64,000 nt of DNA from Phycicoccus sp. Root101 (GTDB taxonomy: Bacteria; Actinomycetota; Actinomycetes; Actinomycetales; Dermatophilaceae), in assembly GCF_001426245.1 (NCBI RefSeq), contig NZ_LMCM01000010.1, positions 477,830 through 541,829 of the forward strand, written 5' to 3'. Under the pieces are notes generated by a model. It was not told where the DNA came from and did no database searches. It was given only the letters and a program-made list of their open reading frames with translations. This document shows positions 1 through 64,000 of the stretch, piece by piece. A program made the position numbers and the translations under genes. Numbering within the stretch: position 1 is the stretch's first letter; each line of letters starts with the position of its first letter.

Positions 1-178
1 GCGAAGAGCCTCGTGGTGCTCGTTCCTCATCGCCTCACCCTAACCGGAATTTTTTACCGGAAGCAGGGCAAAGCACCCTTGAGATGCGCACCCGAACCCG
101 GGCAGGGTGGACGGATCGTCACGATTCCGACGCTGAAGGGGCGCCGGAACGGACGCCTCTACGGCAGGAGCCTGCGAG
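1..178. other. Left-edge leader region without a recognisable gene
   Basis: No ORF here looks genuine. A short CCGG-flanked, T-rich element lies near 43-59. A Shine-Dalgarno sequence AGGAG at 166-170 sits eight bases before the ATG at 179 and supports that start. Confidence 0.5.
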
Positions 179-1543
179 ATGAGAATGCGTCACACGGTGC
201 TGGCCACCGCTGCCGCGCTCGCCCTCACGATCCCAGCGACTGCGGCCTACGCCGCGGACGGGGTCGGCAAGTCCGGCACCCAGCTGGGACCGGACGAGAT
301 CGGGCGCAGCGCCAACGTCGAACACCTGATCAACCTCCCGAGCAGCGGCCCCCTCGCGGGCGCGACCGGGACCGACATCGCCTTCCAGGACGACATGGCG
401 TTCGTCGGCAACTACAACGGGTTCGTCATCTACGACGTGAAGAAGCCCGAGAAGCCCCGCATGGTCGCCCAGGTGAGCTGCCCGGGTTCCCAGAACGACG
501 TCACGGTCTCGGGCAACCTGCTCTACTTGTCCACCGACTCCTCACGATCGGACGACTCGTGCACCTCGGTGCCGCAGTCCGCGACGATCAAGGAGTCGTG
601 GGAGGGCATCAAGATCTTCGACATCTCGGACGTGCGCAACCCGAGGTACATCAAGTCGGTCGAGACGGCGTGCGGTTCGCACACTCACTCGCTCATCCCC
701 GGCAAGAAGACCGACTACCTCTACGTCTCGAGCTACTCGCCCAGCGAGACCTTCCCGGACTGCAAGCCGCCGCACGACTCGATCTCGATCATCGCGGTGC
801 CGAAGAAGGCGCCGACGAAGGCCGCGGTCGTGGCCGAGCCCAACCTGTTCCCCGACGGCGGCTACACCAACACCTCCGGTTGCCACGACATCACCGTCAA
901 CCCGGCCCGGGGCATCGCGGCCGGTGCCTGCATGGGTGACGGCATCATCATGGACATCACGAACCCGGTGGCGCCCAAGGTCATCGACCGCGTCAGGGAC
1001 ACGACGAACTTCGCCTTCTGGCACTCGGCGACGTTCAACAACGACGCCACCAAGGTCGTCTTCACCGACGAGCTCGGCGGCGGCGGTGCGGCCACCTGCA
1101 ACGCGGCCATCGGCCCGAACCGTGGCGCGAACGGCATCTACGACCTGGGCAAGGACCGCACGCTGACGTTCCGCTCGTACTACAAGATCCCGCGGCACCA
1201 GTTCGACTCCGAGAACTGCGTGGCCCACAACGGCTCGCTCATCCCGGTCAAGGGCCGCGACGTCATGGTGCAGTCCTGGTACATGGGCGGCACGAGCTTC
1301 TGGGACTTCACCGACAGCTCGAACCCCAGGGAGATCGGGTACTTCGAGCGGGGCCCGGCCGGCCCGGCCGGTGGTGGGGGCGGCACGTGGTCCTCCTACT
1401 ACTACAACGGCCACGTCTACTCCTCCGACCTCGGCAAGGGGTTCGACGTCCTGCGCATCACGGACAAGTCCCTGGGCAAGGCGGCCAAGGTCAGGATGGA
1501 CCAGCTCAACGTCCAGACCCAGCCGATCTACAAGGTCAAGTAG
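179..1543 (+). CDS. Secreted LVIVD-repeat protein
   Basis: The 454-residue product begins with a Sec signal peptide (basic MRMR start, alanine-rich core, likely cleavage after AYA at about residue 25). The mature part carries several repeats of the LVIVD type, for example GFVIYDVKKPEKPRMV near residue 81, GIKIFDISDVRNPRYI near 142 and GIIMDITNPVAPKVID near 260. Such repeats are thought to form a beta-propeller in cell-surface or secreted proteins; no catalytic function is established. The C-terminal third has Gly/Pro-rich stretches (around GPAGPAGGGGG). AGGAG before the ATG fixes the start. A strong hairpin follows the gene, so it is probably monocistronic. The substrate or partner cannot be read from the sequence. 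Confidence 0.85.
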   Translation: MRMRHTVLATAAALALTIPATAAYAADGVGKSGTQLGPDEIGRSANVEHLINLPSSGPLAGATGTDIAFQDDMAFVGNYNGFVIYDVKKPEKPRMVAQVSCPGSQNDVTVSGNLLYLSTDSSRSDDSCTSVPQSATIKESWEGIKIFDISDVRNPRYIKSVETACGSHTHSLIPGKKTDYLYVSSYSPSETFPDCKPPHDSISIIAVPKKAPTKAAVVAEPNLFPDGGYTNTSGCHDITVNPARGIAAGACMGDGIIMDITNPVAPKVIDRVRDTTNFAFWHSATFNNDATKVVFTDELGGGGAATCNAAIGPNRGANGIYDLGKDRTLTFRSYYKIPRHQFDSENCVAHNGSLIPVKGRDVMVQSWYMGGTSFWDFTDSSNPREIGYFERGPAGPAGGGGGTWSSYYYNGHVYSSDLGKGFDVLRITDKSLGKAAKVRMDQLNVQTQPIYKVK

Positions 1544-1583
1544 CCCGGCCGCACGACCCCGCCGGCGCGCGCCCGGCGGACCG

Positions 1584-1615
1584 GGTGGCCCGGACCCCGA
1601 CGGGTCCGGGCCACC
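1584..1615 (+). terminator. Hairpin terminator after the LVIVD gene
   Basis: A perfect 14-bp stem (1584-1597 with 1602-1615) closes on the tetraloop CGAC, 40 bases after the stop codon. There is no U-tract, which is common for actinobacterial terminators. Confidence 0.7.
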
Positions 1616-1705
1616 TCACTGTGCGCTCGCACCCGTCATACCGGTGCGCGGCGGTGGGGGACGCGCGGGGGGTGAGTGGTGCACACCGGGTATGGCGCCG
1701 CGACG

Positions 1706-1711
1706 TACCCT
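1706..1711 (+). promoter_or_regulatory. -10 box TACCCT for a leaderless LCP gene
   Basis: TACCCT is followed by seven bases and then an in-frame GTG at 1719, the spacing that puts the transcription start on the start codon. There is no Shine-Dalgarno sequence nearby. Confidence 0.5.
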
Positions 1712-1718
1712 GTTGCGC

Positions 1719-3486: not shown

Positions 3487-4953
3487 TCAGACTGCCGGGG
3501 CGGGGTGGCCCAGGTGCCGTCGGGTCATCCTGATGCGGATCGAGGCGGCGAGCACCAGTACGAGCAGGCCGGCGATCACGCCGAAGCCGAGCTGGGGGAT
3601 CAGGGGCAGGCCGATGCCGATGCCGCCGCCGACGACCCAGGCGATCTGGAGCACCGTCTCCGACCAGGCGAAGACCCGCGTGCGCACGCTCTCGTCGATG
3701 TCGCGCTGGACGACGGCGTCGCTGCTCAGCTTGATCAGCTGGGCGGCGAGTCCGGCGACGAGGCCCAGCACGAGCAGCGTGACCAGCGAGTAGAAGACGG
3801 CCGCCACCAGGGCGGCGAGCACGTCGGCGATCAGGGCCACGGCGATGATCACGTCCGGGCGCAACCTGCGCAGGGCGTTGCCGATGACGGTGCCGAGGGC
3901 GTTGCCGGCGCCGGCCGCCCCCACCACCAGACCCAGCACGAGGGTGCCGCTGTGCCCCGGGATCGGGTGCTCGCGCATGAGGAACGCCATGAACAGCGTG
4001 AGGAATCCGGTCAGCAGCCGGGCCCCGACGGCGCTGGTGAGGGCTACGAGGACGGTGGTGGGCAGTGCGGCCACCCGCGCCCGCAGCCGCCGGAGCACGC
4101 CGGTGCGGCCCGCGTCACGACGAGGTATGGCGACCGGCCCGGTGTCCTCGATGTCCAGCTCGCCGGTGCTCGAGTCGACCCGCGCCGGGAGCCTGATGGC
4201 GAGCACCGTGCCCACGACGTAGATGAGGAACGCCAGCCGCAGCGACCATTCGGGGCCAACCTTGGCAGCCGCGCCGGCGAGACCGCCGCCGACGGCCATG
4301 CCGGCGACCCCGGCCAGGGCGTTGCGGGAGTTGGCGTTGACGAGGCTGAACCCCGCAGGGAGCAGGCGGGGTACTGCGGAGGCGCGGGTGACGCCGTACG
4401 CCTTGGACGCGACGAGGCATCCCAGGGCCGCAGGGAAGAGCCACGGCGAGTCGTTGGCGACCGCCCCCGCGAGCACCCAGCAGAGGAAGGCGCGCAGGGC
4501 CAGGGTGGTCCCGATCGCCCAGCGCCGGCCGTGCCGGAACCGGTCCAGCAACGGGCCGATGAACGGTGCGAGCAGGGCGAACGGCGCCATCGTCAGCGCG
4601 AGGAACTGCGCGACCTGCCCCCGGGCCTCGTCGGTCGGGATCGCGAAGATCGTGCCCGCGAGGCTGACGGTGAGGGCGGCGTCGCCCGCGAGGTTGACGA
4701 AGTGCAGCTCGATGATCCGGGCCAGGCCGGTCTCCCCGGCACCGGAGGAGCTCGTGTAGGCCCTGGCCCTGCGGGCTCCCGCCCGACCGCCCCGGCCGGC
4801 CAGACGCGCCCCCGCCACGGTCCCTCGTCCGATGGCCCGTCCGGTGGCCGAGGCACCGTGCCGCAGCGCCTTCGCCGCCCTCCGGTTGCGCGGCCGGTCC
4901 CCGGTGCCGGGCGCGGCCCGTCCCTGGTCGGAACCCACCGGAGGCGTGGTCAT
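3487..4953 (-). CDS. MFS-type transporter with basic N-terminal extension
   Basis: The 488-residue protein has about 12 hydrophobic segments. They start around residue 95 (RIIELHFVNLAGDAALTVSL) and include GPLLDRFRHGRRWAIG, which fits the MFS loop 2-3 signature. The first 90 residues are polar, rich in Arg, Gly and Ala, and probably cytoplasmic. A similar membrane protein often accompanies disA and mutY in actinobacteria, but the substrate is unknown. The ATG at 4953 overlaps or abuts the stop of mutY at 4955, so it is the last gene of a disA-mutY-MFS transcription unit. Export of a small molecule is possible but unsupported by sequence. Confidence 0.75.
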   Translation of the reverse strand: MTTPPVGSDQGRAAPGTGDRPRNRRAAKALRHGASATGRAIGRGTVAGARLAGRGGRAGARRARAYTSSSGAGETGLARIIELHFVNLAGDAALTVSLAGTIFAIPTDEARGQVAQFLALTMAPFALLAPFIGPLLDRFRHGRRWAIGTTLALRAFLCWVLAGAVANDSPWLFPAALGCLVASKAYGVTRASAVPRLLPAGFSLVNANSRNALAGVAGMAVGGGLAGAAAKVGPEWSLRLAFLIYVVGTVLAIRLPARVDSSTGELDIEDTGPVAIPRRDAGRTGVLRRLRARVAALPTTVLVALTSAVGARLLTGFLTLFMAFLMREHPIPGHSGTLVLGLVVGAAGAGNALGTVIGNALRRLRPDVIIAVALIADVLAALVAAVFYSLVTLLVLGLVAGLAAQLIKLSSDAVVQRDIDESVRTRVFAWSETVLQIAWVVGGGIGIGLPLIPQLGFGVIAGLLVLVLAASIRIRMTRRHLGHPAPAV

Positions 4954-4954
4954 C

Positions 4955-5902
4955 TCAGCTCCCGAGCGCGCCGGGCAGCCGGAAGAAGTCTCGGGCGAGG
5001 GGCTCGACCAACCCGTCGGCGACGAGCGAGTCGAGGCACCGCTCACGCTGGACGACGTTGTCGGACACGCCCTCGAGGACCGACCTCGGCACCGGTCCGG
5101 GGCTCTCCCGCAGGCGCCGCAGCAGGGCTCCCCGCATCTGGCGGTCGGTGCCGGCCCAGGCCTGGCCCCGTCGTGGTGGCCCCTCGTGGGCGGGACGGCC
5201 CAGCGACTGCCACCGGCACAGGTCGAGGATCGGGCACTCGCCGCAGCGGGGTGCCCTGGCGGTGCAGACCAGCGCTCCCAGCTCCATCACCGCGACGCTC
5301 CAGGTCCGGGCGCGGTCGGAGTCCTCGGGGACCAGGCTCGTGGCCAGGGTGTGCTCGGCCCGCGTCGGTGAGGCCGCGCCATACTCGTCGCCGGTGACCG
5401 CGCGGGCGATCACCCGGCGCACGTTGGTGTCGACCACGACGGTGCGCTCGCCGAACGCGAAGGTGGCCACGGCTGCGGCCGTGTAGGCGCCGACCCCGGG
5501 CAGGGTGGACAGCTCGGCCTCGCTCATCGGCACCTTGCCGCCGTGCCGTTCGGTCATGGCGACCGCTGCAGAGTGCAGGCGCAGCGCACGACGCGGGTAC
5601 CCGAGGCGGCCCCACGCGCGGACCGCCTCCCCGGGGGCCTCGGCCGCCAGGTCGGCCGGCTCCGGCCAGCGCTGCATCCACTCGGTCCAGACAGGAAGGA
5701 CGCGCGCCACCGGGGTCTGCTGCAGCATGACCTCGGAGACGAAGATGCCCCAGGCCGACGCGTCGCCGTGCCGCCACGGCAGGTCGCGCTGGGCATCGGC
5801 GTACCACTCGAGCACGCGCTCGTGGAGTCGCTCGGGGGCGACGGCCTGCGCGAGCGCCCCGCGGGAAGCCCCCGCAGCCGGCCGCGGGTGGGACCCGGTC
5901 AC
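4955..5902 (-). CDS. mutY: A/G-specific adenine DNA glycosylase MutY
   Basis: MutY removes adenine mispaired with 8-oxoguanine in base-excision repair. The 315-residue protein shows the catalytic Glu in [10 protein letters not shown], the helix-hairpin-helix [12 protein letters not shown], the catalytic Asp in [13 protein letters not shown], and a four-cysteine [4Fe-4S] motif C-x6-C-x2-C-x5-C ([17 protein letters not shown]). The C-terminus is short: the MutT-like domain that reads 8-oxoG in E. coli MutY is largely replaced by about 80 residues resembling a winged helix, as in many actinobacteria. The GTG start at 5902 overlaps the disA stop by four bases (GTGA), so the two are translationally coupled. 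Confidence 0.92.
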
Positions 5903-6975: not shown

Positions 6976-7016
6976 TTCTCAAGCCCCTTGGTATGCCGCC
7001 GGTCAGGTGTGCCGCG

Positions 7017-8438: not shown

Positions 8439-9155
8439 TCAGAAGCGGCGCCACCAGAGGTTCACGGCGTAGTCGACCCCGGTGCCCTCGTGCTCGGCGA
8501 GGATCCCCTCGGCCGCGGTCTCGGGGAACTCGATCCCGACCACCGCCTCGAGGTCGGCCCGGCTGTCGAAGTCCCAGCGGATGGTCAGGCGCTCGCGGGA
8601 CCAGCCCTGCCGGCCCCAGAAACGCTCGACGGCCAGGGCGTCGTAGCCCGGGTAGGCCCGCGAGAACCAGTGGCCGAACGTCGAGCGGGTGGCGTCGTTG
8701 TCCACGACGAACGCCGTCCCTCCCGGTCGCAGCACGCGCTCGAGCTCGGCCAGCCCGGGCTCGCAGCCGGCGCCGAAGAAGTACGCCCAGCGCGCGTGCG
8801 CCACGTCCATGCTGTCGTCGGCCAAGGGCAGCGACTGGGCGACGCCCTCCTCGACCCGCACCCGCGGCATACCGGCGGTGCGGTCCCTCGCCACGTCGAC
8901 CAGGGGAGGGTGGGGCTCGACGCCGACCACGCTCGCGCACCCCAGGCGCACGAAGCGGGGCAGGTGGAAACCGGTCCCGCAGCCCACGTCGACGAGGTCG
9001 GTCCCCTCGAACGGGTGCAGCGCCGCCATGGCGGCCTCGATGAGGCCGTCGCGGTCGACGCCGAGGTTCTCGACCTCGTAGACGTCGGGGGAGTCCCAGA
9101 TGTTCGGGCTGCGGGTCGGCTCGTGCGGCGTCCCGCCCGTGGTCGGCTCGGTCAC
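8439..9155 (-). CDS. Class I SAM-dependent methyltransferase
   Basis: The 238-residue product carries methyltransferase motif I as [15 protein letters not shown] (about residue 60), motif II as [14 protein letters not shown], and a motif III-IV region with [30 protein letters not shown] split over residues 130-160. That layout is the UbiE/COQ5-like small-molecule class. The substrate cannot be inferred. The GTG start at 9155 shares GTGA with the stop of the upstream cysteine-rich gene, so the pair should be co-translated; a link in function is possible but not shown. Confidence 0.8.
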
Positions 9156-9965: not shown

Positions 9966-10499
9966 CGTGGCGTGGTGGCCTCCGGCGGGGACGGTCCGGC
10001 GCTGGACCACCCGTCGAGCGCTCCGGGAGCGTGCCGCCGAGACGGCGAGGAGGACCAGCAGCACCGCTGCGAGCACCCATCCGGGTCGCAGCAGCTCACT
10101 GCCGAGGTCCGCCCAGGCGAGTGGTCGGTCGGGCCAGGGCTCCCGGCCGATCCCGCTGCGGCTGGCCCACTCCAGGCCGAGGGGGACCAGGAGACAGGTC
10201 GGCGCGGCGAGCAGGAGGATCCCCCACCTGCTGCCCCAGCGCACGGCGAGCACGCACAGGAGGGCGAGTGGCACCGCGGCCGTCGCCAGGGCCATGCCCG
10301 ACTCGATCTGTTCGTCGCGGGTGGGCTGCTCACCGAAGAAGGGGGCCGAGTTGATCGCCGCGACGAGCAGGACCCAGGCGATGAAGCACCACCCGAGCAG
10401 GACGGCGGCCGCGGTGACGGGCCAGGTGCGGCGGGAGGGGTGCGGAGGGTCGGGCTGGGAGGGGTGGGGGAGATCGGGCTGGGAGGGGGCCGGCGGCAT
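9963..10499 (-). CDS. Small membrane protein, four predicted helices
   Basis: The 178-residue product opens with a proline-rich cytoplasmic head made of near-repeats ([17 protein letters not shown]). Four hydrophobic segments follow: [56 protein letters not shown] and [15 protein letters not shown]. No family is recognised. The ATG at 10499 is preceded by CACACT with a seven-base gap, a weak version of the leaderless pattern. It is transcribed divergently from the phosphatase gene. The repeats in the head are visible in the DNA as repeated GGGCTGGGAGGGG units. Confidence 0.65.
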
Positions 10500-10555
10500 A
10501 CCGGGCAGTGTGTCCCGGCCACGGACGGCGACGCATGGGTGCGGGTACTCACCAC

Positions 10556-10567: not shown

Positions 10568-11494
10568 ATGCGCCTCGGAGTGGTCGACGTCGGATCCAAC
10601 ACGGTGCACCTCCTCGTCGTCGACGCGCACCGCGGGGCGCAACCGCTGCCCGCGACGTCGCACAAGATCGAGCTGAGGCTCTCGGAGCACGTCACCGACG
10701 ACGGCCACATCGACGAGTCCGGTGAGCGCGCGCTGTCGGGCTTCATCGGGGAGTGCCTCACCGTCGCGGAGGACCAGGGCGTCGAGGAGGTCCTGGCGTT
10801 CGTCACGAGCGCCGTCCGTGAGGCGCCCAACGGGGAGGACGTGCTGGCCCGGGTGCGCACGGAGCGTGGGGTCGACCTGCAGGTGCTCTCCGGGGAGGAC
10901 GAGGCGCGGCTGACCTTCCTCGCGGCGCGACGCTGGTTCGGCTGGTCGAGTGGCACCCTGCTCGTCGTCGACATCGGCGGTGGCTCGCTCGAGCTCGCTG
11001 CGGGCATGGACGAGGACCCCGACGTGGCCGTGAGCCTGCCGCTCGGTGCGGGCCGGCTGACCCGCGACCTCCTGCCCGGGGACCCGCCCGACGCCGACGT
11101 CATCCGTGAGGCGAGGCGCGCCATCCGTGTCCGCCTCGCGGGCGACATCCGCCCGCTCACCAAGGCCGGGGTGCCGGACCGCGCCGTGGGCACGTCCAAG
11201 ACCCTGCGCTCGCTCGCCCGGATCACCGGTGCCGCGCCGAGCAGCGACGGCCCGTATGCCGCCCGCCACCTCGAGCGCGCCGCTCTCGCCGACCTCGTCC
11301 GGACCCTGGCGGGGAAGACCGCCGCGCAGCGGGCCGGGCTCCCCGGCGTCTCGGCGGGGAGGGCCCGCCAGCTGCTCGCCGGCGCGCTGGTCGCCGAGGC
11401 CGCGATGGACCTGCTCGACCTCGAGCGCCTGGACATCTGCCCATGGGCGCTGCGCGAGGGCATCATCCTCAACCGGCTCGACAGCATGCGCTGA
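10568..11494 (+). CDS. Ppx/GppA-family exopolyphosphatase / pppGpp phosphohydrolase
   Basis: The 308-residue protein has the actin-like fold of this family: phosphate-1 motif [16 protein letters not shown] at the N-terminus, phosphate-2 motif [11 protein letters not shown] near residue 138, and an adenosine-type motif in the C-terminal half. It lacks the C-terminal HD domain of long Ppx proteins and so matches the short mycobacterial form (Rv0496), which hydrolyses short-chain polyphosphate. It is followed after 54 bases by the TIM-barrel isomerase gene with its own promoter, an order I recall from M. tuberculosis (Rv0496-Rv0498). Confidence 0.88.
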
Positions 11495-12367: not shown

Positions 12368-12963
12368 GCCCTCGCGGCCGGCGTCCGGGCGCCTCCGACA
12401 CCAAGGCGTCCATCCTCGCCGCCGCGCGGGCGGACTTCGCCGAGCAGGGGTATGACGCCACCTCCGTCCGCGGTGTCGCCCGCCGGGCCGAGGTCGACCC
12501 CGCCCTGGTGCACCACTACTTCGGCGGCAAGGCGGCGTTGTTCGCCGCCGTCATGGACATCCCCGCCGACCCGGCCGTCCTCATCGCCGCCATCGTGCAC
12601 GGCCCGCGCGAGCGGGTCGGGGAGAACCTGGTCCGCACCTTCCTCCGCGTCTGGGACGGCGAGGAGGGCAAGGAGCGCTTCCAGGCCCTGATCAGGTCGG
12701 CGCTGACGCACCACGAGGCGACCGTGATGCTGCGGGAGTTCCTGACCCGCGAGGTGTTCGGCCGGGTGCTGCGCGAGCTGGCACCGCAGGGGGAGCCGCC
12801 GCACGAGCTGGAGCTGCGGGCCGGGCTGGCGGCCTCGCAGATGGTCGGGCTCGCCGTGATGCGCTACATCGTGGAGTTCCCCGCCGTCGCCGACGCGTCG
12901 CACGACGAGCTCGCTGCCCAGCTCGGCCCCACCATCCAGCGGTACCTCGCCCCACTGGACTGA
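12364..12963 (+). CDS. TetR-family transcriptional regulator
   Basis: The 199-residue product has the TetR N-terminal helix-turn-helix: [20 protein letters not shown], then [27 protein letters not shown]. The C-terminal ligand domain shows [20 protein letters not shown], as in the TetR_C_17-like group. The GTG start at 12364 overlaps the isomerase stop. A perfect 16-bp hairpin follows, so the ABC exporter genes downstream probably have separate transcription. Its target is unknown; the exporter 220 bases downstream is the nearest candidate. Confidence 0.88.
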
Positions 12964-47890: not shown

Positions 47891-50668
47891 ATGATCGCAG
47901 GGAATCGCCCACTGGCCAGAGCGGCAGCGGCGTCAGCCGCAGCCCTCGCCGCCGCAGCAGCACTCGGACTCGCAGGATCCGGTCCGGCGCAGGCGTCGCC
48001 GCACGACCGCGGCGGACCCAGGCCACCGGACCGCACCACCTCGGCCGGGTCACCGGTCGACCTGGGAGCGCTGTTCATCGGGGCCCACCCCGACGACGAG
48101 GCGGGACAGCTCTCGGCGTACGGCGAGTGGAAGGAGAAGTACGGCCTGCGGACGGGCGTCATCACCGTCACCCGCGGCGAGGGCGGCGGCAACGCGGTCG
48201 GCCCGGAGGAGGGCCCGGCCCTCGGTCTCCTGCGCGAGAAGGAGGAGCGCGCGGCGGTCGGCAAGGCCGGCATCACCGACGTCTTCAACCTCGACAAGGT
48301 CGACTTCTACTACACGGTCTCGGCCCCGCTGACCCAGCAGATCTGGGACCACGAGCAGACGCTGGGCAAGGTCGTGCGCATCATCCGCCAGACCCGTCCC
48401 GAGATCCTGTCGACGATGAACCCGGCCCCGTCGCCGGGCAACCACGGCAACCACCAGGAGGCGGGGCGCCTGGCCATCGAGGCCTTCACCGCAGCGGCCG
48501 ACCCCACGCGCTTCCCGGAGCAGCTCAGCAAGGAGGGGCTGAAGACCTGGGCGCCCTTGCGCCTGCTGGTCCGTGGCTCTGCCGCGACCGCCCCGAACGG
48601 TGCCGCCTGCGCCACCGGGTTCACCCTCAAGGACACGACGCAGAACGTGTACGGCGTGTGGTCCGGTGAGCGCGCGAAGTCGGGGAAGACGTGGGCCGCC
48701 ATCGAACGTGACGCCCAACGGCTCTACGCCTCGCAGGGCTGGGCGACCTTCCCCGACGTGTCGAGCGACCCGAACGCCCTGGGCTGCGACTACTTCCAGC
48801 AGGTCGACTCCCGCGTGCCGTTCCCCGCGCCCGGCTCCGCAGCCGCGGGTCGGCCGTCCGCGTCCCTCGACGGGGCGGTGACGCACGCCGCGGGCACGGT
48901 GCCGCTGGGAACGCGGATGCGGGTGGCCACGACGAGGTTCGGCGTCCTCGCCGGAGCGCCGTTCACGGCGACGGTCGAGGTGACCGCTCCGGCCAAGGGC
49001 CTGCACGACGCCCGGCTGGTGCCGTCCGTGCCGTCCGGCTGGACGGTCGCCGGGAGCGGGGCGATCGGCACGCTCAAGGCCGGTCGCACGGTGACGAAGA
49101 CCTTCACGGTGACCCCGGCAGCCGGTGCCGCCGTGGGAGACCGCGCCCGCGTTGCCGCGACGCTGCGCTCCGACGAGGGCAGCGGCTACTCCGACCGCCC
49201 GGTGCAGGTGGTTGCCCCGGTCGCAGGCACCCAGCAGCTGCTCCCGCAGGTCGCCGACTTCGAGAGGTGGACCGGTGCTGCTGCCGGACAGCCGCAGCTG
49301 AGCGGCACGGTGAGCCCGGTGCTCACCCTCGCCTCCGGTGGTTCGCGCCAGGTGCGCGTCGACCTGCGAAACAACTCCGCGTCGGCCCAGTCCGGCACGG
49401 TGGCGCTCGCCCTCCCGGCCGGGTTCACGGCGTCGCCGGGCACGGCGGCATACGGGCCGGTCGCGGCGGGAGGGACAGGTTCGGTGACGTTCACGGTCAC
49501 CAACTCCGATCCCTCGCTGAAGACCTCGAACCAGGGCGGCACCCCGGCTGCGCCTGCGGGTGACTACGCCTACACGATCCGGACGACGTCGTCGGCCGGG
49601 TCGAGCACGGCGTCCGCCGCGCTCGAGCTGGTGCCACGGACGACGATCGCGCAGGCGCCGACCGCGCCGTCGGTCGACGGCGTCGACACGGCAGGGGAGT
49701 ACCCCGGTGCCGCGATCGACATCTCCCGGCTCTGGGAGGGGACGGCCTGCGACTCGGCGGCCGACTGCTCGGCGACGGCGAAGCTGGCGTGGCGCGACGA
49801 CACCCTCTACGTGCTGGTCGACGTCACCGACGACACCCTCGGCACGAAGCTCGACGCCGCCGACTGCAAGCGGCACTGGCGCACCGACTCCGTCGAGCTG
49901 GCCATCGACCCGAGGGGCACGTCGGAGAACACCTCGACGACGTTCAAGGCGGCGATCCTCCCGGTGACCGCGGAGGGTGGTCCCTGCTACGAGCGGGACG
50001 CCGACAACCACCAGGGTCCTGGTGCCCAGACGGCACCGGGCATGAAGGTGGCCTCGAAGGTCCGGTCCGGCGGGTACACCGTCGAGACCTCGATCCCGAT
50101 GTCGCTGCTGCCGGGAGCGGTCGACCCGGAGCACCTGGGGCTCAACCTGTTCGTCTACGACTCGGACACGCAGGACCTGACGGGCCAGACGCGGATCGGC
50201 TGGTCGACGTGGGGCGGGGTGCAGGGTGACCCCTACCGCTGGGGCCAGGCGACGGTTGCGGGCTACACGCCGCCGGCCGGTCGTCCGACCACGGCACCCG
50301 AGCCGGTCATCCCGCTCAGTGCGCTGTCCTCGCTCGACTCCCCGCAGAGCCTGCGTCAGGCGGTGGCCATCGACGTCCCACTGGCCGGGGGAGCGGCGAG
50401 CACGCGGGCGGCCAGTGGCTGGGTCGACAAGGCACGGCTGCGGGGCGACACCGCCCTGGTGCGGATGAGGGCGAACTCCGCCGGGTCGGCGCACGTCCAC
50501 GTGGTCGACTCGTCCGGGACCGTCGGCAGCCGCACGGTGCAGGTGGCGGCAGGCAGGCACGAGTACGGCGTCGTGCTGGACCGGGCGCCCGAGGGCTCGG
50601 TGACGGTGTACGTCGGGTGGCAGGACGCCGCCGGCGGCACCCTGGCCTCCAAGGCGGCCGTCCGTTGA
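47891..50668 (+). CDS. Secreted PIG-L deacetylase with NEW3 and CBM9-like domains
   Basis: The 925-residue protein has a signal peptide (AAAAALGLAGSGPAQA), then a PIG-L/LmbE deacetylase domain with the zinc motif GAHPDDEAGQ (His66) and the later NHGNHQEAGR. PIG-L enzymes remove N-acetyl from GlcNAc-containing compounds. Behind it are a NEW3/alpha-galactosidase-associated beta-sandwich (VEVTAPAKGLHDARLVPSVP) with a second similar module, and a CBM9-like sugar-binding domain (APTAPSVDGVDTAGEYPGA to LYVLVDVTDDTLGT). It is therefore an extracellular carbohydrate-active deacetylase. It is 30 bases behind the permease and likely belongs to the same operon (AGGAGG near 47879). Confidence 0.88.
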   Translation: MIAGNRPLARAAAASAAALAAAAALGLAGSGPAQASPHDRGGPRPPDRTTSAGSPVDLGALFIGAHPDDEAGQLSAYGEWKEKYGLRTGVITVTRGEGGGNAVGPEEGPALGLLREKEERAAVGKAGITDVFNLDKVDFYYTVSAPLTQQIWDHEQTLGKVVRIIRQTRPEILSTMNPAPSPGNHGNHQEAGRLAIEAFTAAADPTRFPEQLSKEGLKTWAPLRLLVRGSAATAPNGAACATGFTLKDTTQNVYGVWSGERAKSGKTWAAIERDAQRLYASQGWATFPDVSSDPNALGCDYFQQVDSRVPFPAPGSAAAGRPSASLDGAVTHAAGTVPLGTRMRVATTRFGVLAGAPFTATVEVTAPAKGLHDARLVPSVPSGWTVAGSGAIGTLKAGRTVTKTFTVTPAAGAAVGDRARVAATLRSDEGSGYSDRPVQVVAPVAGTQQLLPQVADFERWTGAAAGQPQLSGTVSPVLTLASGGSRQVRVDLRNNSASAQSGTVALALPAGFTASPGTAAYGPVAAGGTGSVTFTVTNSDPSLKTSNQGGTPAAPAGDYAYTIRTTSSAGSSTASAALELVPRTTIAQAPTAPSVDGVDTAGEYPGAAIDISRLWEGTACDSAADCSATAKLAWRDDTLYVLVDVTDDTLGTKLDAADCKRHWRTDSVELAIDPRGTSENTSTTFKAAILPVTAEGGPCYERDADNHQGPGAQTAPGMKVASKVRSGGYTVETSIPMSLLPGAVDPEHLGLNLFVYDSDTQDLTGQTRIGWSTWGGVQGDPYRWGQATVAGYTPPAGRPTTAPEPVIPLSALSSLDSPQSLRQAVAIDVPLAGGAASTRAASGWVDKARLRGDTALVRMRANSAGSAHVHVVDSSGTVGSRTVQVAAGRHEYGVVLDRAPEGSVTVYVGWQDAAGGTLASKAAVR

Positions 50669-52010: not shown

Positions 52011-53345
52011 ATGACGGCACACCCCTTCGACGCCCCGGCTTCGCAGGCCCTCCTCGAACGCGCGCTCGCGGTCACCCCCGGTGGCGTGAACTCCCCGGTC
52101 CGGGCCTTCCGCGCCGTCGGCGGAACGCCCCGGTTCATGGCCTCCGGCTCCGGCCCGTACCTCACCGACGTGGACGGTCGCGAGTACGTGGACCTGGTCT
52201 GCTCGTGGGGTCCGATGATCCTCGGCCACGGTCACCCGGCCGTCGTCGACGCCGTCAGCACCGCTGTCTCGCAAGGGTTCTCGTTCGGCACCCCCAGCGA
52301 GAACGAGGTCGCGCTGGGCGAGGAGATCGTTGCCCGGGTCGAGCCCGTCGAGCAGGTCCGCCTGGTCTCCAGCGGCACCGAGGCGACGATGAGCGCCATC
52401 CGCCTCGCCCGGGGCTACACGGGCCGCTCCCTCGTCGTGAAGTTCGCCGGCTGCTACCACGGCCACGTCGACTCCCTCCTCGCCCAAGCGGGCTCGGGTG
52501 TCGCGACGTTCGCCCTCCCGGACTCCGCGGGGGTGCCCAAGGAGATGGCGGCCGAGACGATCGTCCTGCCGTTCAACGACCTGGCGGCGGTCGAGGAGGC
52601 GTTCGCCGCCCGTGGCTCCGAGATCGCCGCGGTCATCACCGAGGCCTCGCCCGGCAACATGGGCGTCGTCCCGCCCGCACCCGGCTTCACCGACGGGCTG
52701 CGCCGGATCACCGCCGCGCACGGTGCCCTGCTCATCTCCGACGAGGTGATGACGGGCTTCCGCTGCTCGGCTGCCGGCTGGTACGGGCTCGAGGGCCCGT
52801 ATGCCGCCGGGGCGCCGGACCTGTTCACGTTCGGCAAGGTCATGGGAGGCGGCTTCCCCGCGGCAGCCTTCGGTGGCCGGGCCGACGTGATGGCCCTCCT
52901 CGCACCGGTCGGGCCGGTCTACCAGGCCGGGACGCTGTCGGGGAACCCCGTCGCCACCGCGGCCGGACGCGCGACGCTGCAGCAGTGCACCCCCGAGCTC
53001 TACGCCCGGCTCGACGAGGTCGCCGACGCGATCACCGGCGCCCTCGACACCGAGCTCGGCAGGGCCGGCGTGCCGCACACCATCCAGCGCGCCGGGAGCA
53101 TGTTCAGCGTCTTCTTCCGGGACGGCGCCGTGACGAACTACGACCAGGCCCGGGCCCAGCACGTGCCGGCGTTCGCGGCGTTCTTCCACTCGATGCTCAG
53201 CCAGGGCGTGTACCTGCCGCCGAGCGCGTTCGAGTCGTGGTTCGTCAGCGGCGCGCACGACGACGCCGCGGTGGATCGCATCGTCTCGGCGCTGCCCGCC
53301 GCGGCGTCGGCGGCCGCCGAGTCGTTTGCGACAATCGACTCATGA
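52011..53345 (+). CDS. hemL: Glutamate-1-semialdehyde 2,1-aminomutase
   Basis: HemL makes 5-aminolevulinate, the step after HemA. The 444-residue PLP enzyme has Lys276 in [17 protein letters not shown] as the Schiff-base lysine, [16 protein letters not shown] for phosphate binding and the DEVMTGFR motif. It lies 11 kb from rex-hemACDB, at the start of the cytochrome c maturation cluster, so heme supply and cytochrome assembly are linked in position. ATGA overlap with the next gene. Confidence 0.96.
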
Positions 53346-53989: not shown

Positions 53990-54594
53990 GCCACCGCACC
54001 TCCCGTATGGCGCGCGCCTCGGCGATGCTCGCCATACCGGTCCTCGCACTGTCGCTCGCGGCGTGCTCGCAGGACCCGAACTCCATCGCGGCCCAGGCCA
54101 AGTCGGGCAACCGTCAGGGCTACATCTCCGGCGACGGCACGGTCGAGGCCATCCCCGTCGCCCAGCGCAACAAGCCCGTCGTGCTGTCCGGGAAGACGCT
54201 GGACGACCAGTCGTGGTCGGTGGCCGCCCAGGCCGGCAAGGTCGTCGTGCTCAACGTCTGGGCCTCCTGGTGCCCGCCCTGCGAGAAGGAGGCGCCCGAG
54301 CTCAAGGACGCCGCCGAGAAGGTCGCGGCTGCGAGCAAGCCGGTGGTGTTCATGGGGATCAACACCCGGGACAACCCCGACTCGGGCAGGGCGACCGCCA
54401 AGCGCCAGGGCATCCCGTACCCGTCCCTGGATGACCAGGACGGCCGGATGATCCTCGCGCTGCAGGGGAAGGCCCCGACGCCGCCGGTCACGCTCGTCCT
54501 CGACCCCACCGGCCGCATCGCGGCCCGGGTCGTCGGTGAGGTGACGTCCTCGACGCTCACCGGGCTCGTCGACGACGTGCTGGCCGAGAAGTAG
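53986..54594 (+). CDS. TlpA/ResA-like thiol-disulfide lipoprotein
   Basis: The 202-residue protein has a lipobox LAAC (Cys27) and a thioredoxin domain with the redox motif WASWCPPCEKEAPEL (Cys96, Cys99) and cis-proline TPPVTLVLDP. It keeps apocytochrome CxxCH thiols reduced outside the membrane, with electrons from CcdA encoded next. ATGA overlap with the phosphatase gene. Confidence 0.92.
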   Translation: MSHRTSRMARASAMLAIPVLALSLAACSQDPNSIAAQAKSGNRQGYISGDGTVEAIPVAQRNKPVVLSGKTLDDQSWSVAAQAGKVVVLNVWASWCPPCEKEAPELKDAAEKVAAASKPVVFMGINTRDNPDSGRATAKRQGIPYPSLDDQDGRMILALQGKAPTPPVTLVLDPTGRIAARVVGEVTSSTLTGLVDDVLAEK

Positions 54595-56928: not shown

Positions 56929-57923
56929 CGAACGAGACCCTGGCGGGCTACGCCAACGTCAGCCTCTACTCGGCGATGGCGGTCTTCACGATCGCCATGC
57001 TGTGCTACGCCGTCTACCTCGCCGGTCTGCTCCCGGCCCGCGACCGCGCGGGCGACCGGGAGCCGGAGCTCGCGGTCGACCGCGAGCTCGTCTCCGCCGG
57101 TGCCCCCTCGGAGACGGCGGGCACGCCTGTGTCCGGGACCCCGCGCCCCGGGCGCCCCGACGAGTCGGACGTCCCCTCGCGGGCCCGTGCCGCGGCCGGC
57201 ATCGGTGCGACGACGACCTGGCTGGGCGGGATGCTGCTGGTCGTGTCGATCGCCCTGCGCGGCCTGTCGGTCGACCGGTGGCCGCTGGGCAACATGTTCG
57301 AGTTCGCCGTGATGGGGTCGATGTTCACCTCGATCGCCTTCTCGGTCTGGGCGACCAAGCGGGACCTGCGCTGGCTGGGACTGTTCATCACCGGCCCGAT
57401 CCTGCTCGTCCTCGGCATGGCCGTCCGGGTCTGGTACACCGAGGCCGCCGAGCTGCTCCCGTCGCTGCAGAGCTACTGGCTCGTCATCCACGTGACCGTC
57501 GCCGTGCTGGCCAGCGCCATCTTCACCCTCGGCGCCGCCGCGTCGGCCGTCTACCTCGTCAAGGACGCGTTCGCCCGTTCCGGCCGCAGCAGCTTCCTCG
57601 ACCGGTTCCCCGACGCGCCGTCGCTCGAGCGCACGGCCTACGGCCTGCACATCGTCGCGTTCCCCCTGTGGACCTTCACCCTCATCGCCGGGGCCATCTG
57701 GGCCCGCCAGGCGTGGGCGTCCTACTGGAACTGGGACCCCAAGGAGGTCTGGACCTTCGTGATCTGGGTCGTCTACGCGGCATACCTGCACTCGCGGGCG
57801 ACCAGCGGGATCAGCCGGCAGACGGCGACGTACATCGCCCTGGCCGGCTACGCCTGCATCATCGTGAACTTCGCCGTCGTCAACGTGTTCTTCGTCGGCC
57901 AGCACTCCTACTCAGGCCTGTAA
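56925..57923 (+). CDS. ccsA: Cytochrome c synthetase subunit CcsA/CcsB
   Basis: The 332-residue heme handling protein has eight helices and the tryptophan-rich WWD motif in ASYWNWDPKEVWTFVIW. Conserved histidines for heme lie in VIHVTVAVLAS and LHIVAFPLWT. A 50-residue Pro/Glu-rich insert follows the first helix (residues 40-90) and is variable in the family. ATG 56925 overlaps the resB stop. Confidence 0.94.
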   Translation: MTNETLAGYANVSLYSAMAVFTIAMLCYAVYLAGLLPARDRAGDREPELAVDRELVSAGAPSETAGTPVSGTPRPGRPDESDVPSRARAAAGIGATTTWLGGMLLVVSIALRGLSVDRWPLGNMFEFAVMGSMFTSIAFSVWATKRDLRWLGLFITGPILLVLGMAVRVWYTEAAELLPSLQSYWLVIHVTVAVLASAIFTLGAAASAVYLVKDAFARSGRSSFLDRFPDAPSLERTAYGLHIVAFPLWTFTLIAGAIWARQAWASYWNWDPKEVWTFVIWVVYAAYLHSRATSGISRQTATYIALAGYACIIVNFAVVNVFFVGQHSYSGL

Positions 57924-58895: not shown

Positions 58896-59495
58896 ATGGT
58901 CGAGGTCGTCGTGTTCCACCACGTGCAGGGGCTCACGCCGGGGGTGAGGGCGTTCGCGGACGAGCTGCGGCAGGCCGGGCACACCGTGCACACGCCGGAC
59001 CTGTTCGACGGCCGCACGTTCACGACGATCGACGAGGGCATGGCGCACGCGCGCTCCGTCGGGTTCGACACCCTCCTCGATCGTGGAGTGGCCGCCGTCG
59101 AGGACCTGCCGGCGGACCTGGTCTACGCCGGGTTCTCGCTCGGCGTGATGCCGGCCCAGAAGCTCGCCCAGACCCGGGCAGGGGCGCGTGGCGCGCTGCT
59201 GCTGCACGGATGCATCCCCGTCTCCGAGTTCGGAGAGCGCTGGCCCGACGGCGTGCCCGTGCAGGTGCACGGCATGGACGCGGACCCCTTCTTCGCCGAG
59301 GAGGGTGGCGACCTCGACGCGGCCCGCGCGCTCGCCGCGTCGACCGACCAGGCAGAGGTCTTCCTCTACCCGGGGGAGGAGCACCTCTTCACCGACTCCT
59401 CGCTGCCCGCGTATGACGCGCAGGCTGCGGACCTGCTCACGCAGCGGGCGCTGCAGTTCCTCGACCGCGTGGGGCGTACCGCGGACGAGGTGTAG
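58896..59495 (+). CDS. Dienelactone hydrolase-family protein
   Basis: The 199-residue alpha/beta hydrolase has the nucleophile elbow GFSLGVM (Ser in place of the usual Cys of dienelactone hydrolases), an Asp in HGMDADPFFAEEG and the His in GEEHLFTDSS. It begins VEVVVFHHVQGLTPGV. Substrate unknown. ATG 58896 has GGAGGAGG five bases upstream. Control by the divergent ArsR-like protein is likely. Confidence 0.85.
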   Translation: MVEVVVFHHVQGLTPGVRAFADELRQAGHTVHTPDLFDGRTFTTIDEGMAHARSVGFDTLLDRGVAAVEDLPADLVYAGFSLGVMPAQKLAQTRAGARGALLLHGCIPVSEFGERWPDGVPVQVHGMDADPFFAEEGGDLDAARALAASTDQAEVFLYPGEEHLFTDSSLPAYDAQAADLLTQRALQFLDRVGRTADEV

Positions 59496-61784: not shown

Positions 61785-62897
61785 TCAGCGCAAGGACACC
61801 TTCGGCTCGATGCCGAGGATCTCGGCCAGGCGCGCCACTTCCTGCCGGAGTGCGCGGTCAGGGCGCGGGCTCCCGTCCAGCCAGGTGACGGTCAGCTCGC
61901 TCGCCTTCGTCGCCCAGGTGCCGCACACGAGACCGCCCCGGACGACGGGGTTCGCCTTGCGCGTCATCAGCTCTCGCAGGGGAGCCGGAGTGACGTGGAC
62001 GTCCTTGGTGCCGGGGCCCATGACCCACTGGTCGTGACCCGGCAGGAACCGGACCGCGTCCGACGGCTCCGCCGCGAGGAGGTCGTCGACGTCTGCCGCC
62101 AGGACCAGGGCCGGGGTGCCCGCCAGGTCGACCGTCGCCAGGTCGTCGGCCAAGGCCGCTAGCCAGCCGTCGATCCGCCTGCGCCCGGAGCTGAGGCCGT
62201 TGCCGAGCCAGTAGTGGACGTGGTCGCGGGTGGCCGGTCCGTACACGCGCAGGTAGGCCGACACGGCATACGCCCCGGCCTCGTCGAGGTCGGGGATGCC
62301 GCGCCAGCGCGGGTTGGTGTCGAGGCGCTGGAGCGTGAGGCGGCCGTCGCGGGCGGGCGCGATGCTCACGTCGCCCTGCCAGGTCAGTGGCTTCACGAGG
62401 GTGCCGGCACCCTCGTCGAACACCGGACGGAGGTGGCGGTACGCGCGGTTCCCGGCCAGGGCCTCCCCGAGCTCCTGCACGGTGAGGGGACCGTCCGCGA
62501 CCGCCTCACGGACCGCGGCCCGGAAGTCCGGCCAGGCTTCTGGAGTGAGCCGGTAGTGCTCGACCCAGCTCGAGCGTTCCCACTGTCGCCCCGCGGACCG
62601 GAGTGCGAGGTAGGCGCCGCCCTCCTCCGGCGACAGGTGGTGCACCGCGCCGCGGAAGGCGAAGGCCTTGATGACGGTGCCCTCGGCCAACGCCTCCGCG
62701 AGCCCACCGGGGGTCGAGGACCTCTGGCGCGTCCGGACCGCCAGCTCGGCGAGGGACTCGTCCATCGACGGTATGGCGCCGAGCCGGCGCACGACCTCCG
62801 CGACCCCTTGCGTGCCGACGGGATCGAGGAGGTGTCGCCGCAGGCGCCACGACAGGGCCTGCGCCCACGTCGTCGACACCTCTGTGCGCGTGCCCAT
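61785..62897 (-). CDS. Winged-helix DNA-binding protein (HTH_42/AlkZ-like)
   Basis: The 370-residue protein belongs to the HTH_42 family: N-terminal SWRLRRHLLDPV, FAFRGAVHHLSPEEGGAYLA and a C-terminal FLPGHDQWVMGPG...VVRGGLVCGTW region. AlkZ enzymes of this fold unhook interstrand crosslinks with a QxQ or QxD catalytic motif. I do not see a clear QxQ here, so glycosylase activity is uncertain and it may bind DNA only. It precedes the monooxygenase gene with two bases between. Confidence 0.8.
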   Translation of the reverse strand: MGTRTEVSTTWAQALSWRLRRHLLDPVGTQGVAEVVRRLGAIPSMDESLAELAVRTRQRSSTPGGLAEALAEGTVIKAFAFRGAVHHLSPEEGGAYLALRSAGRQWERSSWVEHYRLTPEAWPDFRAAVREAVADGPLTVQELGEALAGNRAYRHLRPVFDEGAGTLVKPLTWQGDVSIAPARDGRLTLQRLDTNPRWRGIPDLDEAGAYAVSAYLRVYGPATRDHVHYWLGNGLSSGRRRIDGWLAALADDLATVDLAGTPALVLAADVDDLLAAEPSDAVRFLPGHDQWVMGPGTKDVHVTPAPLRELMTRKANPVVRGGLVCGTWATKASELTVTWLDGSPRPDRALRQEVARLAEILGIEPKVSLR

Positions 62898-62912
62898 CGG
62901 TGCGCCGACCCC

Positions 62913-63554
62913 TCAGCCCGCCGCTGCCACGGTCTTGGTCATCACGCAGTTCTTCGCGCCCTTGGGGCGGTCGTAGGTGAAGCCGGCTCGCTCGAACAGG
63001 GCGCGGGTCCCGTTGTACAGCACCGACATCTTCTTCCCGTCGTTGTCGTGCGGGTACCCCTCGACGACCCCGCCACCGGCTGCCGCCACGAGGTCCAGGA
63101 CTCCCTGCAGGGCGATCGCGGAGATGCCGGAACGTCGGTAGCGCTTGTCGACGAACAGGCAGGTGATCCGGAAGTCGGGCACGCGCTCGCTCGTCTCCTC
63201 GTACTGCTTGCGGTGGTAGATGTTGGGCAGCTCGTCCGGCGGGCCGTACTGGCACCAGGCCACCGCCTCGTCGCCGTGCAGGACGACTGCGGCGTGCGCC
63301 CGGTCGCAGTGGACGAGCCGTTCCTTGAGGGCGCGGTTGGAGTCCGCGTCGTACGTCTTCTCGCCGGCCATGGTGTGGAAGTACGTGCACCAGCACCCGC
63401 CGAACACCCCGTTGTGCCGCTCCATGAGGGCCGCGTATGCCGCCCACGTGTCCGGTCCGAGGGCCTCGACCCTGAGCTCGTCCGTGGCCACGGGAGACCT
63501 GGTCGTCCTCGTGGTCGTCGTCTTCGTCGTCGTGGGCCTTGCTGTCCCCGCCAT
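62913..63554 (-). CDS. GNAT-family acetyltransferase with Thr/Arg-rich head
   Basis: The 213-residue product has a GNAT core with GGCWCTYFHTM, CLFVDKRYRRSGISAIALQG (the acetyl-CoA loop) and GTRALFERAGFTYDR. The first 25 residues (TARPTTTKTTTTRTTRSPVA) come from a GAC/GTC-type trinucleotide repeat in the DNA and could be variable. ATG 63554 lies six bases after TACCGT (63566-63561, minus strand), a leaderless start. The upstream in-frame start at 63722 would pass through DnaA-box-like sequences and is unlikely. Confidence 0.8.
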   Translation of the reverse strand: MAGTARPTTTKTTTTRTTRSPVATDELRVEALGPDTWAAYAALMERHNGVFGGCWCTYFHTMAGEKTYDADSNRALKERLVHCDRAHAAVVLHGDEAVAWCQYGPPDELPNIYHRKQYEETSERVPDFRITCLFVDKRYRRSGISAIALQGVLDLVAAAGGGVVEGYPHDNDGKKMSVLYNGTRALFERAGFTYDRPKGAKNCVMTKTVAAAG

Positions 63555-63621
63555 GGCGACACGGTAGACCTCGAAGCGGACGATCGGCTTCCGGAAAGTT
63601 GTCAGTCCCGGCTCCGGCCGC

Positions 63622-63659
63622 GTGTCCACAGGGCGGCACGTCACGTCTCGTTGTCCACA
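63622..63659 (+). promoter_or_regulatory. Pair of DnaA-box-like sequences
   Basis: TTGTCCACA (63651-63659) equals the actinobacterial DnaA box, and GTGTCCACA (63622-63630) differs at one base. They lie in the gap upstream of the DUF222 gene. Confidence 0.4.
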
Positions 63660-63781
63660 GGATGGGTCCTGGCGGGTTGCGTTCCCGGACAGGTCTGGCA
63701 GTCGGGATCCGTTGGGGTGCAACGGGTTTGGTGTCTCGGCGGAGTTCGATGGCTGTCGGTGGTCGGGGCTAGGGTTGTCGT

Positions 63782-64000
63782 ATGGATGGGGGCCAGACGC
63801 TGGTGCAGCGACGCGAGTCGATCGCGGCTGCCCGGGTGGCGTTGGCCGGTCTGGGGGACTGGTTGTGGCAGGCCGGTGGGGGTGCGGTTGGTGGTGTCGG
63901 CGGGTTGGCTGAGCTGTTGGGTGAGGTCGATGCGTTGGGGGCTGCGTGTGATGCGGCCAGGGTGGCGGTGGTGGGGGAGGCGATCGAGCGTGGTGAGCCC
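63782..64000 (+). CDS. DUF222/HNH-type protein, N-terminal part (runs off the window)
   Basis: The frame from ATG 63782 is open for 73 codons to the window end. The translation (QTLVQRRESIAAARVALAGL, GLAELLGEVDALGAACDAAR, VAVVGEAIERGEP) matches the start of DUF222 proteins (13E12 family), which usually end in an HNH nuclease domain and are multicopy in these genomes. TAGGGT (63770-63775) is six bases upstream, a leaderless start. Codons such as GGT and TTG are more frequent than in neighbouring genes, suggesting a separate history. Confidence 0.75.
   Translation, partial: MDGGQTLVQRRESIAAARVALAGLGDWLWQAGGGAVGGVGGLAELLGEVDALGAACDAARVAVVGEAIERGEP

Follow-up and report, generated by a model that had tools for sequence, protein, structure and literature searches.

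Introduction

DNA uptake sequences are independent of replication strand and scarce in foreign DNA. In the accessible part of an account from 2025, the Neisseriaceae and Pasteurellaceae, two proteobacterial families, are called the sole ones known to possess them, and that of the Pasteurellaceae is described as a genome-wide word of two main types with inverted pairs, its receptor still being termed unknown and a type IV minor pilin having been proposed as a candidate (PMC12616744). The Neisseriaceae sequence is portrayed, in the accessible part of a second study, as a short over-represented word with eight dialects that track phylogeny and with inverted pairs suggestive of terminators (PMC3630211). 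Here we report on an octamer, GTATGCCG, which recurs in a 64,000-nucleotide stretch of the genome of Phycicoccus sp. Root101 (hereafter the window) and throughout that genome (G000; 4,384,879 bases in 12 contigs; Dermatophilaceae, Actinomycetota). We consider it probable, at roughly 70%, that a lineage of actinobacteria capable of natural transformation has in GTATGCCG, with a weaker extension to S-GTATGCCG-Y-G-K-G-G, its DNA uptake sequence, uptake itself being what we infer from the pattern of the word.

Over-representation of the word in the window and its genome

Across the genome GTATGCCG occurs 1468 times (727 and 741 copies on the two strands), about 18-fold more often than the reversed word taken as a control (36 + 46 = 82 copies). 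Within the window 23 copies were observed against 1.8 expected under an order-3 Markov model, and the word ranks sixth among 1680 octamers of the same composition, a comparison that a preliminary description of the window had suggested for the whole genome. That description had stated that most GTATG sites extend to a set of longer words, and 36 of the 47 sites in the window (25 on the forward strand and 22 on the reverse) do continue as NCG, with 23 CCG, nine GCG, four ACG and no TCG. All positions that it gave fall no more than 3 bases from a true GTATG site, but those at 35405 (Rex), 43746 and 46695 carry GTATG and not GTATGNCG.

A simple codon-score caller yielded 395 genes (398,670 bases) from the window plus 400 kb of contig C1, and their synonymous codons were permuted within genes so as to preserve the protein (60 shuffles), a second scheme also keeping the next base. 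As the preliminary description had anticipated for codon-shuffled genomes, GTATGCCG far exceeded both: 141 copies (88 sense and 53 antisense) were counted, versus 10.8±2.6 (maximum 16) under the main scheme and 10.7±3.1 (maximum 21) under the second. Genes of the window alone hold 20 copies, compared with 1.4 in the shuffles (maximum 5 in 60). Among related words in the 395 genes, GTATGGCG occurs 33 times versus 5.5 after shuffling and GTATGACG nine times versus 3.4, the top shuffle also reaching nine; GTATGTCG shows no excess over codon shuffles in these genes. Enrichment of GTATG alone is mild (217 copies in called genes versus 110 in shuffles), so the signal is that of the octamer. A ranking of frequent octamers over 464 kb was likewise headed by GTATGCCG (174 versus 10.4, order-3 model), together with an octamer sharing seven overlapping bases with it. 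The over-representation of GTATGCCG is thus confirmed as real and genome-wide.

A secondary form, GTATGGCG, was also observed, with 54 copies against 11.1 under the Markov model in the window and G000 C1:1-400000. Its density amounts to 0.25-0.8 per kb between genes versus about 0.09 within them, which would suit an accepted word that is wider than GTATGCCG or in the course of shifting.

Rare codons at word sites

Inside GTATGNCG lie 25 of the 32 ATA codons and 104 of the 154 TAT codons of the 395 called genes. Codon contexts were compared over 464 kb of the Phycicoccus genome: TAT encodes 90 of 185 tyrosines in Tyr-Ala-(G..) contexts versus 64 of 2340 others, GCA is used in 38 of 84 word-making Ala-Tyr contexts versus 6 of 257 other Ala-Tyr, and ATA in 16 of 127 Gly-Ile-(C..) contexts versus 16 of 4139 other isoleucines. 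The earlier observation that rare codons occur where they make the word therefore holds for TAT, GCA and ATA, which are concentrated in word-making contexts and not equally common outside the word; GGT, also put forward as rare, has a frequency of 14.8 per 1000 here and is not. The same tyrosine bias is present in another bearing species of the genus (G003; TAT at 82 of 153 in the word context versus 84 of 1898 elsewhere). Little or none is evident in the wordless relatives G011 (1/29 versus 1/305), G054 (0/21 versus 7/332) and G020 (2/16 versus 37/317), and in G049, a user of the sister word GTACGCCG described below, the counts are 2/14 versus 29/302. Selection on the DNA word itself, as the preliminary description had proposed, is supported by the codon shuffles, the context test and the sister words in relatives.

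Distribution and conservation within Dermatophilaceae

Loci of the family were retrieved by means of a HemB-like protein of the window (its name assigned by eye), and bear titles from Knoellia, Phycicoccus, Janibacter, Terrabacter, Lapillicoccus, Ornithinimicrobium and Arsenicicoccus, genera which we take to be Dermatophilaceae, as well as from Dermatophilaceae metagenome-assembled genomes (MAGs). Words were counted in 117 whole genomes, comprising 71 of the family and 46 from other families of the order. The family genomes fall into 41 with 625-4,724 copies of GTATGCCG, totalling 40,293 forward and 40,087 reverse copies, and 30 with 7-293, and each of the 46 other genomes has at most 167. The ratio to the reversed word, a rougher guide than copy number, is at least 2.5 in the 41 high genomes and 0.6-5.0 in the 30 low ones.

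Conservation of individual sites was assessed by aligning the window with 15 family loci (all of the 17 but L028 and L033), with chance expectations summed by hand. In nine word-dense relatives 29 of 51 words were kept at aligned places, compared with about 10 expected for ordinary octamers containing three A/T; in three non-bearing relatives none of 15 was kept (about 2.6 expected). Because the same handful of sites recurs in the several comparisons, these counts are not independent.

Sister words and their phylogenetic pattern

For each of 40 relatives, 20 of the 30 low genomes among them, all octamers in 14-400 kb were scanned against 12 codon shuffles (six for G003). Sister words (GTACGCCG, GGATGCCG, GTATGCGG and GTACGCC) were identified in seven of these 20, and the scan found no such word in the other 13, one of which, G046, has the different word described below. 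The over-represented words were GTACGCCG in G033 (26 versus 6.8 shuffled), G049 (31 versus 6.2) and G057 (37 versus 11.3), GGCGTACG in G034 (33 versus 10.0), GGATGCCG in G026 (27 versus 7.0) and G036 (43 versus 10.7), and GTATGCGG in G030 (17 versus 2.5). The preliminary suggestion to compare relatives thus revealed related words in related genomes. Variation was also found in three further genomes: GTATGACG and GTATGGCG lead in G037, where GTATGACG ranks first (13 versus 1.1) and GTATGCCG fourth (9 versus 1.7), both accompany GTATGCCG in G013, and GGTATGCC ranks first in G056 (23 versus 0.6). In four bearing genomes (G009, G010, G025 and G031) the scan did not rank GTATGCCG first; as no more than 0 of 7 copies in G025 and 1 of 9 in G031 lay inside called genes and the rest outside, the simple gene caller probably failed in these two.

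Whole-genome counts confirm GTACGCCG as a dialect in G049 (3903 copies, with 310 of the reversed word), G057 (2618; 161), G033 (2216; 143) and G034 (1359; 167). Elsewhere in the family G063 (1125; 171), G009 (1011; 284) and G029 (752; 163) were not accepted as GTACGCCG dialects, because genomes from one other family of the order reach similar counts (G074, 834 and 140; G092, 900 and 211; G108, 770 and 74). In these last three the word may be one that the genomes use themselves, or its frequency may stem from base and codon composition. Separately, a different word, CCCCTTCG/CGAAGGGG, is over-represented in two genomes lacking the GTATG word, namely G046 (stretches L122, L185 and L186; 26 versus 6.5 in genes, 51 in all) and Janibacter melonis (L025; 11 versus 1.7 in genes, 17 in all).

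A single-gene tree of ComEC from 44 genomes, in which 18 of 41 inner branches reach 95, places the GGATGCCG pair G026 and G036 as sisters (SH-aLRT 98). Word labels require 14 changes on this tree versus a shuffled mean of 21.7, a value as low being obtained in 0 of 200 shuffles; sister words cluster, and wordless lineages are scattered.

Flanks, close pairs and strand

In sequence logos the conserved stretch widens to S-GTATGCCG-Y-G and, weakly in intergenic copies, continues as K-G-G, i.e. about 12-13 bases, and flanks past about 13 bases are not strongly conserved. Close pairs, defined by starts at most 50 bases apart, were collected from stretches of 21 bearing genomes. Of 20 GTATGCCG pairs with at least one copy outside called genes, 16 were head-to-head, three tail-to-tail and one tandem, versus three head-to-head and seven tail-to-tail among pairs wholly inside genes. 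Many head-to-head pairs form near-perfect stems, e.g. GTATGCCGCGTGG..CCACGCGGCATAC, some of them near gene ends. For variant words in ten genomes we found five head-to-head pairs (G036, G026 and G049 only), two tandem and one tail-to-tail; in the other 30 genomes (1,449 kb) none of the five close pairs of GGATGCCG and GTACGCCG was head-to-head.

These data bear first on the alternative that codon or dinucleotide bias, or a dispersed repeat element, gave rise to the word. A few almost identical hairpins recur among the close pairs, as a repeat would; against this, the codon shuffles refute such an origin for the bulk of sites (141 versus 10.8), the rare codons are confined to the word, and the flanks lack strong conservation beyond the limit given above, so that we regard this explanation as scarcely credible.

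Copies are spaced slightly more evenly than random over 400 kb (coefficient of variation 0.86). The complete genome G003 has dnaA at 2.997 Mb. Twenty 20-kb stretches were taken at even spacing along it, and in the 19 that remain without the one at the presumed terminus, hand-summed counts give 99 copies in the direction of replication and 89 in the opposite direction. Over 400 kb of the Phycicoccus genome the strands hold 76 and 75 copies, though gene length is distributed about 2:1 toward one strand. The strand-skew comparison raised in the preliminary description thus returned no bias, which disfavours both a Chi-like site and a segregation motif. Chi sites are short, frequent, non-palindromic and skewed to one replication strand. 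A Chi-like recombination hotspot, stopping a nuclease of RecBCD/AddAB type and marking self DNA, would agree with a word sharing the first three of these properties and with its change between clades; with no skew in either genome, and with hairpin pairs and lineages in which the scan found no word, neither of which it would lead one to expect, we judge it unlikely. A protein that organises or segregates the chromosome could bind a word spread genome-wide in both orientations, yet in the 19 stretches sampled from one chromosome orientation showed no bias with respect to the origin, and many relatives have no word, rendering such a binding site highly improbable. It is about as improbable that the word is recognised by a DNA methyltransferase, or by some other system of modification or defence, and is maintained because a genome profits from being modified at many sites. 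The word is sequence-specific, strand-symmetric and patchy across genera, which would fit, but the hairpin pairing would be left unexplained, and to our knowledge no modification system drives a non-palindromic word to such excess through codon changes.

Scarcity around phage capsid genes

Thirteen capsid elements (HK97-type, PF05065) were located in GTATGCCG-rich genomes, and 11 stretches were examined, the duplicate element copy L230 being included in the Markov count given below (11 stretches) and left out of the host-density count (n=10). Within 2 kb of the 10 capsid genes GTATGCCG occurs four times against 17.3 expected at host density, and the corresponding values are 10 versus 25.5 within 3 kb, 17 versus 33.4 within 4 kb and 41 versus 63.6 within 8 kb. 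Several elements look small, and wider windows therefore include host genes. Control stretches (n=8, L243 having been left out of nine) contain 74 copies versus 72.2 expected.

Related words in other families

Of 80 named HemB-type loci, 29 were tested with 40 codon shuffles, each represented by 12-21 kb of one homologous region. GGATGCCG, fixed before testing from G026 and G036, was raised 3.2-3.5-fold in five of nine loci from genera that we assign to the Microbacteriaceae, namely Microbacterium testaceum (25 versus 7.1), Agromyces (28 versus 8.0), M. yannicii (17 versus 5.3), Subtercola (15 versus 4.3) and Cryobacterium (15 versus 4.5); in 16 other tested loci outside Dermatophilaceae it reached at most 1.8 times the shuffled count. 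In single loci, top words arising by chance have z values of about 4 to 6, with 8.3 for one unrelated palindrome, so that among words not fixed beforehand weight can be given to the strongest alone. Related words lead in two more of the nine loci (Schumannella, TGGATGCG, 20 versus 1.6; M. oryzae, GGATGGCC, 19 versus 4.2), and the top word of the Cryobacterium locus is GCATCCGT (14 versus 1.0); the shuffle test gave nothing clear for the Glaciihabitans and Leifsonia MAG loci. The top word of L064, a MAG of unassigned family, is CCGGATGC (12 versus 1.5). In 20 kb of Pseudonocardia endophytica (L092) the palindrome CTGCGCAG was seen 10 times versus 0.8 by codon shuffle.

Import machinery

The gene comEC was detected in 111 of the 117 genomes and, being almost universal, was rejected as a discriminating trait. 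Directly before comEC in the Phycicoccus genome (L129) lies a gene that, from SLBB and HhH parts recognised by eye, resembles comEA. In G005, a genome with 2537 word copies, comEC appears as two adjoining matches (C1:1517076-1517881), a possible frameshift. Type IVa pilus genes also fail to discriminate, as they are nearly absent from the family: PilM was found in 3 of 71 genomes (two weakly) and full-length PilB in 3 of 71. The Flp ATPase TIGR03819 scores above cut-off in 100 of the 117 genomes, among them wordless ones, and was set aside for that reason. Low TIGR03819 scores of G000 and G014 arise because the matches were split; the G000 tadA of this type lies at C10:355517-356451 as two adjoining pieces, perhaps a frameshift.

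The Phycicoccus genome also possesses an Flp/Tad cluster (C5:465573-470227) consisting of tadA, tadB, tadC, flp, tadE, tadF and tadG, five of whose seven genes are backed by Pfam (T2SSE, T2SSF twice, TadE and Tad), flp and tadF being named from place and look. Its tadA type was scored absent where the best match was weaker than 1e-57. On this basis 47 of the 48 bearing genomes have it, as do 14 of the other 23 in the family (Fisher 9e-5, ancestry uncorrected), or, without 11 unscanned or doubtful genomes, 47 of 48 and 5 of 12; we accepted only a partial link between this second Tad ATPase type and the word. Two pieces of the gene, separated by 11-79 kb, occur in G004, G009, G017 and G038, with the break near residues 205-215 or 233 (Table 1). 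Mobile elements breaking competence genes are a known theme elsewhere, according to the accessible part of one study (PMC4774983), and the split tadA may lend indirect support to a role of the C5-type pilus in transformation.

Table 1. Word sites in the window, compiled from the GTATG listing and the codon-context analysis, and split tadA genes in related genomes
Feature	Location	Strand	Context
GTATGACG	1634..1641	-	intergenic
GTATGGCG	1690..1697	+	intergenic
GTATGGCG	4125..4132	+	antisense in gene 3487-4818, ATA codon
GTATGGCG	5377..5384	-	sense, TAT codon
GTATGCCG	6991..6998	+	intergenic
GTATGCCG	8865..8872	-	sense (GMP)
GTATGCCG	10494..10501	-	at called start codon
GTATGCCG	11254..11261	+	sense (PYAA)
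GTATGACG	12450..12457	+	sense (GYDA)
GTATGCCG	14502..14509	+	sense (SYAV)
GTATGCCG	15531..15538	-	antisense (AAY, GCA codon)
GTATGCCG	18112..18119	-	antisense (AAY, GCA codon)
GTATGCCG	19943..19950	+	sense (TYAA)
GTATGCCG	20356..20363	-	antisense (TAY, GCA codon)
GTATGCCG	23730..23737	-	sense (TYAV)
GTATGCCG	26687..26694	-	sense (AYAA)
GTATGCCG	28563..28570	+	antisense (AAY, GCA codon)
GTATGCCG	28784..28791	-	sense (SYAG)
GTATGACG	30536..30543	+	sense (GYDA)
GTATGCCG	34931..34938	-	intergenic
GTATGCCG	36229..36236	+	sense (VYAE); kept in 5/15 aligned relatives
GTATGCCG	37362..37369	+	sense (GMP); kept in 3/13 aligned relatives
GTATGCCG	40576..40583	+	sense (RYAA), gene read as hemB; kept in 7/15 aligned relatives
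GTATGCCG	40941..40948	-	antisense (AAY), gene read as hemB; kept in 5/15 aligned relatives
GTATGGCG	41129..41136	-	intergenic
GTATGGCG	41876..41883	+	antisense, ATA codon
GTATGGCG	44762..44769	-	intergenic
GTATGCCG	49446..49453	-	antisense (AAY, GCA codon)
GTATGCCG	52799..52806	+	sense (PYAA)
GTATGGCG	54005..54012	+	at called start codon
GTATGGCG	54030..54037	-	antisense, ATA codon; opposite copy 25 bases away
GTATGCCG	57778..57785	-	antisense (AAY, GCA codon)
GTATGACG	59411..59418	+	sense (AYDA)
GTATGCCG	62264..62271	-	sense (AYAV)
GTATGGCG	62771..62778	+	intergenic
GTATGCCG	63435..63442	+	antisense (AAY, GCA codon)
split tadA	G004 C1:2352824-2424625 (L275, L276)		serine recombinase beside break, read by eye
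split tadA	G009 C11:594904-674698 (L277)		serine recombinase about 3 kb inside, read by eye
split tadA	G017 C43:9233-21500 (L273)		serine recombinase beside break, Pfam-confirmed
split tadA	G038 C23:365834-401819 (L278)		one edge seen; no recombinase there

Among the window sites, those at 15531 and 18112 lie in adjacent genes that look alike (14777-17224 and 17391-20669); their flanks are almost identical, and the two words may therefore be one event.

A candidate DNA uptake sequence with dialects

Of the three analogies drawn in the preliminary description (uptake sequence, Chi-like site and methylation target), the uptake sequence fits best, the Chi-like site being disfavoured by the absence of strand bias. 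Six features of uptake sequences were found here: genome-wide excess on both strands, no dependence on replication strand, inverted pairs, clade-specific dialects, scarcity near phage capsid genes, and the presence of comEA and comEC genes. A seventh, a type IV pilus with a minor-pilin receptor, is not supported in the family, which has almost no genes for such a pilus and Flp/Tad genes instead. In our view the data are best read as a Gram-positive DNA uptake sequence that evolved independently and has dialects, and from these features we infer natural competence, uptake bias, a receptor and molecular drive. A DNA-binding part of the competence apparatus, most likely an Flp/Tad pseudopilin, would prefer word-bearing DNA, which ComEA and ComEC would import and RecA recombine. 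Preferred import of word-bearing alleles would spread words at tolerant positions in either orientation, and inside genes through the choice of otherwise avoided codons; as the receptor drifted the word would drift along, giving rise to dialects, and loss of uptake would be followed by decay of the word. With somewhat less assurance, we favour the broader proposal that this is a third independently evolved uptake-sequence system and the first outside Proteobacteria, spanning at least the Dermatophilaceae (GTATGCCG, GTACGCCG, GGATGCCG, GTATGCGG and others) and the Microbacteriaceae (GGATG-type), read by an Flp/Tad competence pilus and not a type IVa pilus, and old enough for dialects and several losses.

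Several observations weigh against an uptake sequence. Conservation is uneven, in that three sparser bearing relatives kept one of 19 window words (about 2.7 expected), and comEC is long and open in wordless genera as well. The link with tadA breaks down in one bearing genome (G056), treats split or partial genes as present, is uncorrected for ancestry and offers too few independent tree pairs for testing. Capsid stretches are word-poor and not word-free, with 45 copies in the 11 versus 3.3 under the Markov model. The reversed word is a weak control for GTACGCCG, its ratio reaching 10 outside the family (G108, 770 versus 74). Also, a narrow literature search found no report of transformation in Dermatophilaceae. 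Among the open-access papers listed, preprints excluded, we found no report of an uptake sequence for Actinobacteria, Intrasporangiaceae, Microbacteriaceae, Micrococcus luteus or the word itself, nor one of natural transformation in Janibacter.

If an uptake sequence is indeed at work, self-specific DNA uptake would have arisen again, with a different pilus, in a high-GC Gram-positive lineage, natural competence would be implied in many actinobacteria not known as transformable, and the strong local codon bias would be explained. Adding the word to donor DNA might provide a practical handle, and with so many dialects and losses inside a single family, tests of how receptor and word co-evolve would become feasible.

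Comparison with known systems

HIP1 of cyanobacteria is a very frequent octamer and a palindrome. GTATGCCG resembles it in frequency and length but is not its own reverse complement, pairing only as separate inverted copies; from Chi, which it resembles in being short, frequent and non-palindromic, it differs in lacking strand skew. Like the Neisseriaceae uptake sequence, GTATGCCG is short and over-represented, with dialects and inverted pairs, but it belongs to another phylum, is another word, and occurs in a family with almost no type IVa pilus genes (PilB in 3 of 71). With the Pasteurellaceae sequence it shares a genome-wide distribution and inverted pairs, and differs in word and core and from a system for which, in the part of the source accessible, a type IV minor pilin is the proposed receptor. 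Micrococcus luteus belongs to another family than Dermatophilaceae. The main text of the study describing its transformation genes does not contain the term "uptake sequence"; as far as the accessible part of that study goes, an Flp/Tad pilus cluster is needed for transformation of M. luteus, and the C5 cluster of the Phycicoccus genome has the same layout (PMC4322843).

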